From an uncultured Fusobacteriaceae bacterium (GTDB lineage Bacteria > Fusobacteriota > Fusobacteriia > Fusobacteriales > Fusobacteriaceae), in contig CAMTIW010000003.1 of NCBI GenBank assembly GCA_947072665.1, positions 1 to 52,985 of the forward strand: a stretch of 52,985 nt of DNA, in the 5' to 3' direction. The position numbers were made by a program, and so were the translations under genes. The notes under the pieces were generated by a model. That model was not told the DNA's origin, ran no database searches, and was given only the letters and a program-made list of their open reading frames with translations. Shown piece by piece: positions 8,376-15,418 of this stretch (position 1 is the first letter of the stretch; each line of letters opens with the position of its first letter).

Positions 8376-8425
8376 AAAAAAGACTCTACGTAACCTTTGA
8401 AAATAGGTAGTAGAGTCTTTTTTTT
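8374..8425. terminator. Bidirectional terminator between lysO pair and mgtE
   Basis: AAAGACTCTAC (ending 8389) pairs with GTAGAGTCTTT (from 8410), with A- and T-runs outside and a small inner ACCT/AGGT stem. It serves the converging exporter and mgtE transcripts; the mgtE stop codon overlaps its edge. Confidence 0.92.
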
Positions 8426-9755
8426 ATAGATGCAGAATTAGTTTAGCTAGGTAAAAATAAATGAAAAGAGCTAAGGCGTCCACAACAGTGGTAACAAGAG
8501 GTCCTGCCATAATAGCTGGGTCTAAATTTAGTTTCTTAGCTCCTAAAGGGAGAAGACCTCCAACTAATTTAGCTGCTATAATTGTAAAAAATAAAGTTAT
8601 TGAAACTACAAGAGAAACATGAATACTAGCTTTTATAAGGTAAACCATTCTTAAAAAATTAAGAGAACCTAATCCAATTCCTACAATTAAACTTACTCGG
8701 AATTCTTTCCAAACAACTAATAAGTAATCTTTTATTTCTATTTCTCCAAGAGCCATTCCTCTTATAATGAGAGTTGAAGATTGAGAACCAGCATTTCCAC
8801 CAGTATCCATAAGCATAGGAATGGAAGCTGCGAGAATAACCATAGACTGTAAAACATCTTCATATTTACTTATAATACTCCCTGTAAAAGTAGCTGAAAC
8901 CATTAAGACTAATAACCAAAGTAATCTGTTTTTGGCTAGGGAAAAAACACTACTGTCCAAATATTCTTCTTTAGATGGTGTCATAGCAGCCATTTTTTGA
9001 AAATCTTCAGTATTTTCTTCTTCAATAGCATCTATAACATCATCTATAGTAATAATTCCTAAAAGTTTATTTTCATTATCTACAACTGGTAGAACTAAAA
9101 AATCATATTTTTTGAATAATTCAATACTTATTTCACGATCAGCCAAAGTATTTACTGAAATAGCATCATCCATGATATTAATAATTTGATCGCTATCTTT
9201 AGAAAATAATAATGATTTTAAAGTAACTATTCCAATAAGTTCTTTTTTTTCATTTATTACATAGGAAGTTTCTACAGTTTCACTATGGGAACCATGAGTT
9301 CTTATATAGCTTAAGGTTTCTTTAACACTCCATTCCTTTTTTACAGCTAAATATTCAGTAGTCATAAGACTTCCCGCTGAATCTTTAGGATAAGAAAGGA
9401 ACTGATTTATTAAAATTCTATTTTTATTAGTAGAATTTTTAAGGACTCTTTTTACTATGGTAGAAGGCATTTCTTCGATAAAATCAATCATGTCATCAAA
9501 AAATAGTTCATCTAGAATTTCTTGTAAATTTTTATCAGAAATAGCATCTACAATTTGAATTTGTTCATCAGATGAAAGGTAAGAAAAAACTTCTGCAGCA
9601 AATTCTTTTTTAAGCATTCTAAATAGTATTAAAATATTAGTTTTGTTATTTTCTAGAATTTCAGCCACATCAACTGGTGTCATTTCATGAAGTAATGTTT
9701 TTAATTGAATATAGTTTTTATTTTCTAAAAGTTTTTTTATTTCTAAAGTTATCAT
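8424..9755 (-). CDS. mgtE: Mg2+ channel/transporter MgtE
   Basis: Mg2+ influx channel, 443 residues, in the usual order: N-terminal helical superhelix domain (about 5-125), paired CBS domains (about 130-250, with LLGIITIDDVIDAIEEE at the end), then five membrane helices (about 275-443). The signature SIPMLMDTGGNAGSQSSTLIIRGMALGE of the pore helix is present, as is LDPAIMAGPLVTTVVDALAL with the Mg2+-selectivity aspartate. The family closes when its cytosolic domains bind Mg2+. The start has GGAGG seven bases upstream. The leader carries a small peptide gene (9772-9855) and competing hairpins, pointing to translational control by Mg2+; no M-box riboswitch is recognisable. Confidence 0.96.
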   Translation of the reverse strand: MITLEIKKLLENKNYIQLKTLLHEMTPVDVAEILENNKTNILILFRMLKKEFAAEVFSYLSSDEQIQIVDAISDKNLQEILDELFFDDMIDFIEEMPSTIVKRVLKNSTNKNRILINQFLSYPKDSAGSLMTTEYLAVKKEWSVKETLSYIRTHGSHSETVETSYVINEKKELIGIVTLKSLLFSKDSDQIINIMDDAISVNTLADREISIELFKKYDFLVLPVVDNENKLLGIITIDDVIDAIEEENTEDFQKMAAMTPSKEEYLDSSVFSLAKNRLLWLLVLMVSATFTGSIISKYEDVLQSMVILAASIPMLMDTGGNAGSQSSTLIIRGMALGEIEIKDYLLVVWKEFRVSLIVGIGLGSLNFLRMVYLIKASIHVSLVVSITLFFTIIAAKLVGGLLPLGAKKLNLDPAIMAGPLVTTVVDALALFIYFYLAKLILHL

Positions 9756-9762
9756 ATAGTTA

Positions 9763-9804
9763 CCTCCGAGTTTAAATTGGGAGGTTCCTAATTACCCCCT
9801 CCCA
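9763..9804 (-). promoter_or_regulatory. Competing hairpins over the mgtE ribosome binding site
   Basis: On the minus strand TGGGAGG (9804-9798) can pair with CCTCCCA (9784-9778) inside the leader reading frame. The same CCTCC can instead pair with the mgtE Shine-Dalgarno GGAGG (9767-9763) across a 12-nt loop. The two pairings exclude each other, so ribosome position on the leader peptide could decide whether the Shine-Dalgarno is free. The pairings are visible in the sequence; the switch is inferred. Confidence 0.5.
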
Positions 9805-9855
9805 TAAAAAAATATTATTAATTAAAAATATAAATTGTTTGGGATCGGGCCCCAT
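9772..9855 (-). CDS. MgtL-like leader peptide upstream of mgtE
   Basis: A 27-codon frame with GGAG nine bases before its ATG, ending 16 nt before the mgtE start. It begins MGPDPKQFIFLINN and ends WEGVIRNLPI. The first five residues match the MEPDP start of MgtL, the leader peptide of enterobacterial mgtA, whose Asp/Pro-rich nascent chain destabilises the ribosome at low Mg2+ and makes translation abort. The rest differs from MgtL. The codons for W-E-G supply one strand of the hairpin at 9798-9804. The peptide itself probably has no function beyond its translation. The similarity is short, but it occurs exactly upstream of a Mg2+ transporter gene. Confidence 0.6.
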   Translation of the reverse strand: MGPDPKQFIFLINNIFLWEGVIRNLPI

Positions 9856-9899
9856 GTGTCTCAACTCCTTTTATTATTTATTTTATTAATATTGAATAT

Positions 9900-9928
9900 A
9901 TTATATTATTATTTTAAGAAAAAATCAA
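9900..9928 (-). promoter_or_regulatory. Promoter of the leader peptide-mgtE transcript
   Basis: On the minus strand TTGATT (9928-9923), a 17-nt spacer, then TATAAT (9905-9900). Transcription would begin near 9893, giving a leader of about 38 nt before the small peptide gene and about 140 nt before mgtE. Confidence 0.6.
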
Positions 9929-15138: not shown

Positions 15139-15167
15139 TTGACTAATATCAGTTTATAGTTTAAAAT
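15139..15167 (+). promoter_or_regulatory. Promoter of the cobalamin operon
   Basis: TTGACT (15139-15144), 17-nt spacer, TAAAAT (15162-15167). Predicted transcription starts within a few bases of the first riboswitch helix, so the aptamer forms the very 5' end of the transcript. Confidence 0.65.
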
Positions 15168-15170
15168 TAA

Positions 15171-15332
15171 ACATATGGTTCAAGATTAGTTGATTAAAAG
15201 AGAAATGGGTGAAATTCCCATGCGGTCCCGCCACTGTAAAGATGATGAAACTAGAATATACCACTGATAATGTTGTGTTATTGGGAAGGTCTAGAAGTAA
15301 AAAGAATCTAAGCCAGGAGAACTACCATATGT
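15171..15332 (+). ncRNA. Cobalamin riboswitch aptamer
   Basis: Conserved adenosylcobalamin aptamer elements appear in order: GGGTGAAATTCCCATGCGGT, then CCCGCCACTGTAAA, and the B12 box AGCCAGGAGAACTACC. The closing helix is ACATATGG (15171-15178) with CCATATGT (15325-15332). High cobalamin should switch off the downstream cobalt transport and B12 synthesis operon. Confidence 0.95.
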
Positions 15333-15418
15333 GTTTTATTATTCTGCGTGGACGGAAGGTATAAAAGAATATAATTCTCATAGTATTAAAATCTATAAGT
15401 TGTATTTTTTTTACTTTT

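Follow-up and report, generated by a model that had tools for sequence, protein, structure and literature searches.

The mgtE locus and its leader

In the window, by which we mean the whole 52,985-nucleotide stretch analyzed here, the gene for the Mg2+ transporter MgtE is preceded by a short open reading frame (ORF), whose start lies 100 nt ahead of the mgtE start. The initial annotation had described a 27-codon frame with a proper Shine-Dalgarno sequence in front of mgtE, and both the frame (minus strand, 9855–9772, with AAGGAG) and the identity of the downstream gene (Pfam MgtE, MgtE_N, and CBS) were confirmed. The transporter is nearest to those of Cetobacterium and other Fusobacteriaceae (62–69% identical), and the source genome is a fragmented assembly. 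The features of the locus are:

8424–9755, minus: mgtE, Mg2+ transporter, 443 amino acids (Pfam MgtE 4.9e-37, MgtE_N 2.4e-23, CBS 1.6e-16)
9762–9767, minus: region 4, GGAGGU, the mgtE Shine-Dalgarno sequence (read from the sequence; accessibility 0.01 without a ribosome on the leader)
9772–9855, minus: leader ORF of 27 codons, MGPDPKQFIFLINNIFLWEGVIRNLPI and a stop, reading MGPDPKQFI... (read from the sequence; N-terminus conserved in relatives)
9778–9785, minus: region 3, ACCUCCCA, anti-Shine-Dalgarno, pairing with region 2 (open state) or region 4 (closed state) (pairing energies)
9794–9804, minus: region 2, UGGGAGGGGGU, pairing with region 1 or region 3 (predicted folds)
9840–9850, minus: region 1, leader codons 2–6, GCCC..UCCCA, pairing with region 2 in the closed state (minimum free energy folds)
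9841–9852, minus: codons 2–5, GGG CCC GAU CCC (Gly-Pro-Asp-Pro), proposed ribosome-destabilizing stretch (aligns with M-[DE]-x-x-P of relatives)
9865–9870, minus: Shine-Dalgarno sequence of the leader ORF, AAGGAG, 9 nt before the start (anti-Shine-Dalgarno duplex −11.0 kcal/mol)
9900–9928, minus: promoter-like TTGATT-17-TATAAT (consensus scan, 10 of 12 matches; weak evidence)

Initiation at the promoter-like site (9928–9900) would place about 38 nt of leader ahead of the ORF; in the consensus scan, such sites were not commoner in the mgtE upstream region of the window than in shuffles of that region. Rfam returned nothing credible for the leader of the window at gathering or permissive thresholds, the M-box covariance model (RF00380) had no match in it, and its total folding energy was ordinary (z = −0.76), a measure that is uninformative alone. 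Elsewhere in the window (15159–15343), a cobalamin riboswitch (RF00174, 108 bits) lies ahead of an apparent cluster for cobalt transport and cobyric acid synthase, which is an ordinary arrangement.

Conservation of the leader peptide upstream of mgtE

Relatives of mgtE were taken from genome collections, which gave 103 distinct upstream regions, and in each of these the ORF with the best Shine-Dalgarno sequence between −185 and −70 was picked blindly, with its residues ignored. This procedure found a leader ORF in 73 of the 103 regions. Residue 2 was Asp or Glu in 65 of these leaders, residue 5 was Pro in 56, and 53 had both, whereas the same pair occurred in only 2 of 59 ORFs picked in the same way at other genes of the same loci and in 3 of 524 ORFs from dinucleotide shuffles, counts that rule out a chance ORF. 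A further 12 of the 73 leaders had the acidic residue without Pro5. When 150 genomes were sampled evenly across the clostridial phylum and 40 upstream regions were read, 18 of the 29 ORFs had the acidic residue and only 8 had Pro5 too, which makes the acidic residue the more widespread feature; leaders such as MDPLPR, METDPGR, MESDPGS, and MDGDSG were added in this way. Screening 300 genomes of that phylum with a degenerate DNA-level pattern for MDSxPLP plus a ribosome site gave no match, and the pattern was too strict for this to be informative.

The claim of an MgtL-type leader peptide with the N-terminus MGPDP thus stands for the frame and for the character of its N-terminus, which are conserved in two phyla, and not for the exact residues. 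What is kept among mgtE leaders is the frame, Pro5, and an acidic residue: the closest relatives, in the Fusobacteriaceae, read MDSYPKR, MDSYPQR, MDTYPQC, or MDTYPKR, and those of the Clostridia include MDSGPLP, MDSSPLP, MDPGPLP, MDPIPLP, MDSDPLS, MDTDPEP, MDGDPLS, and MDDIPLE. The peptide of the window keeps Pro5 and has its acidic residue at position 4, with Gly2 in the place of the near-universal acidic residue 2.

Such a leader is absent ahead of many mgtE genes in Fusobacterium and its relatives. Several of these genes (L094–L103, L123–L128) share a conserved upstream block of approximately TTGCCTTTTTT..AAAATGGTA.TCTATA, which might be a promoter or the site of a regulator, and a leaderless mgtE of Alkaliphilus (L012) has in the leader's place, about 80–150 nt upstream, a long inverted repeat (GGGGTGACAAGGGGACGTTTCGTTTGACACC...) that resembles the insertion of a small mobile element. 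In a second family of Fusobacteriota, which we read as probably Leptotrichiaceae, TTG-started leaders beginning MNEEVPEE or MNEEVPS precede mgtE, and the mgtE ribosome site at these loci is strongly hidden (L111–L114, L117–L119, L121, L124, L125). Ruminant-gut Clostridia (L076, L079, L080) have a common TTG-started leader, MDSKDSIPLCCS, about 180 nt ahead of mgtE.

Association with mgtE and with the M-box

We searched 80 genomes of one order with a covariance model built from the clostridial leaders, ignoring the downstream gene. Matches occurred in 43 of the 80 genomes, and all 30 of the fetched loci directly precede mgtE.

We had expected the leader and the M-box to exclude each other, which was wrong, as they co-occur. 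The M-box (RF00380) is present at 19 mgtE loci of clostridial relatives, and at all 19 an ORF with Asp or Glu at residue 2 follows it (L007, L009, L011, L015, L016, L022–L025, L027, L030, L034, L038, L048, L049, L057, L060, L074, L081), including MDSGPIP, MDSSPLP, MEPDGTN, MEEGSSA, and MEDGSSP; those that fell outside the range of the blind pick (MEPEG, MEPDG, MEEGS, MEDGS) were recognized by relaxing the ribosome-site rule and by eye. Since a terminator-like hairpin sits between the M-box and the leader in several of these loci, the tandem suggests a transcriptional and then a translational control by Mg2+. Leaders of a second style (MEPDG, MEPEG, MEEGSS, METDGSS, MEDGSSP; L022, L023, L048, L056, L081) are acidic and lack Pro5, lie about 260–470 nt ahead of mgtE, and are preceded by an M-box in four of five cases.

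Competing RNA folds predicted for relatives and for the window

In the free RNA of most relatives, the predicted folds consist of stem 1:2, between the start of the leader and a downstream segment, and stem 3:4, between the anti-Shine-Dalgarno segment and the mgtE ribosome site; when a ribosome is masked onto codons 1–5, stem 2:3 is predicted to form instead and the mgtE site is freed. Averaged over 63 leaders, accessibility at the mgtE Shine-Dalgarno sequence was 0.26 in free RNA and 0.59 with a ribosome on codons 1–5, against shuffle means of 0.43 and 0.41, and neither observed value was reached by any of 40 shuffled sets. With a ribosome slid along the leaders of 49 loci, accessibility was 0.50–0.56 at codons 1–4, 0.48 at codon 5, and 0.35 at codon 7, fell to 0.21–0.25 at codons 13–18, and rose again past codon 23, while the shuffles were flat. 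By this position profile, the RNA asks whether the ribosome passes approximately codon 6, a limit that coincides with the end of the conserved residues. The claim that alternative hairpins make access to the mgtE ribosome site depend on where the leader ribosome stands is supported in the relatives by these predicted accessibilities and by covariation. Among 20 clostridial leaders, 8 of the 12 pairs in stem 1:2 had changed on both sides (31 doubly changed cells, against a mean of 10.5 in shuffles), and stem 2:3 had 7 such cells (shuffle mean 2.0), each matched by 0 of 500 shuffles. The case from covariation rests on the Clostridia because a MAFFT alignment of the Fusobacteriaceae leaders, which form about six sequence groups, gave little of it. 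In the Clostridia, stem 1:2 also hides the ribosome site of the upstream ORF (uORF) itself in the predicted closed fold. The predicted folds indicate that the output of the leader would be translational, through sequestration of the mgtE Shine-Dalgarno sequence, rather than through Rho-dependent termination.

Mutually exclusive folds tied to leader translation are likewise predicted for the window, where they are weaker. Both pairings described by the initial annotation exist, namely UGGGAGG/CCUCCCA (stem 2:3, −11.7 kcal/mol) and ACCUCC with GGAGGU of the mgtE Shine-Dalgarno sequence (stem 3:4, −7.2 kcal/mol alone and −11.3 kcal/mol with flanks). It had missed stem 1:2, in which leader codons 2–6 (9850–9840) pair with 9804–9794, and with this pairing the predicted attenuator of the window is complete. 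In free RNA, the accessibility of the mgtE Shine-Dalgarno sequence was 0.01, a value as low as which was found in 0 of 400 shuffles, and the site was also closed with a ribosome at codons 11–17. The proposal that a ribosome stopped at MGPDP opens mgtE held in part: the site opens partially with a ribosome on codons 1–5 (0.17–0.29; 0.23 at codon 3 and 0.22 at codon 5), but the closed form remains favored (0.82) with these codons occupied. Accessibility was 0.45–0.47 with the ribosome at codons 7–8, and the difference between early and late ribosomes was matched by 10 of 400 shuffles. The balance of hairpins in the window is weaker than in most relatives; its local folds are nearly equal in energy (−12.5 kcal/mol for 2:3 and −11.3 kcal/mol for 3:4), and folding during transcription may therefore favor 2:3.

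Conservation at the level of the peptide and of the RNA

The covarying stems 1:2 and 2:3 would also fit a switch made of RNA only, in which direct sensing of Mg2+ by the stems, or the alternation between hairpins, does the work and the amino acids are incidental. Leaders of the Fusobacteriaceae invariably write Pro5 as CCC, a codon inside stem 1:2, so that in this family the conservation of Pro5 cannot be assigned to the peptide apart from the RNA, and in the study of Salmonella MgtQ the Pro codon mattered through its stem only (PMC8092293). In the Clostridia, however, Pro5 lies outside the stems and the amino acid is invariant while its third base varies: codon usage at Pro5 outside the Fusobacteriaceae was CCT 22, CCC 17, CCG 4, and CCA 1, and codon 5 encoded Pro in every one of the 29 leaders that the covariance model retrieved, with 100% identity at its first two bases and 51% at the third. 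Residue identity in these 29 leaders was 1.0 at codons 2 and 5, dropped to 0.75 at codon 6 and 0.50 at codon 7, and stayed near 0.1 at codon 8 and beyond. Since leaders of this kind had been used to build the model, these amino-acid values are partly selected, which does not apply to the freedom of the third base or to the collapse after codon 7. Ser3 is drawn from both the TCN and the AGT codon families, the start codon varies among ATG, GTG, and TTG, and the pair of acidic residue and Pro5 is almost absent from the shuffled controls, all of which makes a switch of RNA only unlikely. The conserved start and ribosome site could also belong to a small functional protein, a reading that we reject: past approximately residue 7 the identity is about 10%, the length ranges from 14 to more than 40 amino acids, and in Cetobacterium a downstream frameshift separates the leader of L083 from those of L084 and L089, which leaves a functional product a very slight chance.

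Conservation of Pro5, and often of Pro7, would also suit an attenuator that reports the supply of proline (or of Asp or Ser) or the level of charged tRNA-Pro, and sensing through proline codons has reportedly been proposed for mgtL and mgtP of Salmonella. Yet the leaders contain one or two isolated prolines and no run of regulatory codons of the kind that marks trp- and his-type attenuators, the proline is no better conserved than the acidic residue, and the controlled gene is an Mg2+ transporter with an M-box in tandem at many loci; we regard an amino-acid signal as improbable. Little different in probability is a general sensor of translation status, in which any slowing at early codons (by antibiotics, cold, or loss of bL31 or EF-P) would open mgtE and Mg2+ would be one input among others. 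The RNA reads only the position of the ribosome, which is compatible with such a sensor and makes drop-off and pausing indistinguishable to the RNA, but the strict acidic and proline N-terminus and the exclusive association with mgtE favor a specific signal.

Comparison with known leaders

The hallmark of intrinsic ribosome destabilization is that, when Mg2+ is low, the nascent chain destabilizes the ribosome or makes it pause, an effect that bL31 counteracts. To our knowledge, Mg2+ sensing by the nascent chain in this manner is known experimentally solely in enterobacteria. The E. coli MgtL peptide has 17 residues and begins MEPDPTPLP (K-12 record); at low Mg2+ ribosomes leave it at EPDP, which turns mgtA on (PMC11282234, PMC11552253), a destabilization that is credited to Chadani et al. 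(2017) as described in these two papers. Like MgtL of Escherichia and Salmonella, the mgtE leaders are short ORFs that carry a separate ribosome site and lie in the 5′ leader of an Mg2+ transporter, have one or more acidic residues and Pro5 at the N-terminus (MEPDP in MgtL; MGPDP, MDSGP, or MDPGP here), and are combined with alternative RNA folds in a logic in which poor translation of the leader would turn the transporter on. Unlike MgtL, which serves the P-type ATPase MgtA and works by Rho termination, they precede the MgtE channel, occur in Fusobacteriota and Clostridia, differ in the remainder of the peptide, and appear from the modeled folds to act on translation. The likeness is limited to about five residues and may be convergent.

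In our comparison, the closest mechanical match is MgtQ of Salmonella, an ORF between mgtC and mgtB with acidic codons 2 and 5, at which stems 1:2 and 3:4 compete with 2:3 and the ribosome site of mgtB is exposed through this competition (PMC8092293). The mgtE leaders share with it this arrangement, in which stem 3:4 contains the ribosome site of the transporter gene, the predicted translational control, and a Pro codon CCC inside stem 1; MgtQ differs in having 8 codons, in being intergenic within an operon, and in controlling mgtB, and sequence likeness is not part of the match. The closed folds of the E. coli mgtA and corA leaders, the latter a predicted one, hide the ribosome site of their uORF (PMC11552253), as stem 1:2 is predicted to do in the Clostridia, and translation of CorL in the corA leader of E. 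coli and Salmonella is likewise inverse to expression of the transporter (PMC11552253). CorL, however, is Rho-dependent, has few acidic or Pro residues, and serves corA. Control of a transporter leader by Mg2+ together with a conserved uORF is also found with the M-box, since in Mycobacterium a conserved uORF with a conserved proline, Rv1805A, follows it and was reported as genus-specific and without known role (PMC12810186); the leader of the window, by contrast, contains neither an M-box nor another Rfam family. The "mgtE motif" of Thioalkalivibrio is a riboswitch candidate (PMC11109978) and a different thing from the leader peptide. We found no report of an mgtE leader peptide in Clostridia or Fusobacteriota, outside the enterobacteria, in the open-access literature searched, and as far as that literature goes the attenuator is previously undescribed.

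Proposed mechanism and significance

Computation gives good support to the ORF, to the conservation of its N-terminus, to the RNA switch, and to the tie with mgtE, through codon-level conservation, competing and covarying stems, an association exclusive to mgtE in the genomes searched, and the tandem with the M-box. We consider it likely that the element in the window is a leader-peptide translational attenuator of mgtE similar to MgtL and MgtQ, in which the progress of the leader ribosome probably switches the importer on at low Mg2+. Without a ribosome on the leader, or once the leader is read through, regions 1 and 2 would pair, as would region 3 with the mgtE Shine-Dalgarno sequence, and mgtE would be off. 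Ribosomes held or lost within approximately the first five codons (Met-[acid]-x-x-Pro, or Met-Gly-Pro-Asp-Pro in the window) would cover region 1 and leave region 2 untraversed, free to pair with region 3 and so to open the mgtE site. The acidic and proline N-terminus would be the sensor: at low Mg2+ the ribosome would be destabilized or paused while making it, as with MgtL and MgtQ in enterobacteria, and at high Mg2+ it would read on and mgtE would be shut. We infer translation of the ORF in vivo, a response to Mg2+, and drop-off rather than pausing. That a nascent Met-Asp-x-x-Pro chain which aborts ribosomes is the Mg2+ sensor for mgtE throughout Clostridia and Fusobacteriota, alone or behind an M-box, seems to us somewhat less certain, though still rather probable.

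The same N-terminal logic and a covarying switch before mgtE in two further phyla, often with an M-box, would amount to a widespread mode of Mg2+ homeostasis. Dozens of natural variants (among them MDSGP, MDPGP, MGPDP, MDGDS, and MNEEVP) are at hand for learning which nascent chains destabilize ribosomes, and the tandem loci pose the question of why two Mg2+ sensors, one of RNA and one ribosomal, are placed on one transcript. If the proposed mechanism is true, the use of the ribosome as a gauge of Mg2+ would be a general bacterial strategy, whether inherited or reached independently, rather than an enterobacterial curiosity.
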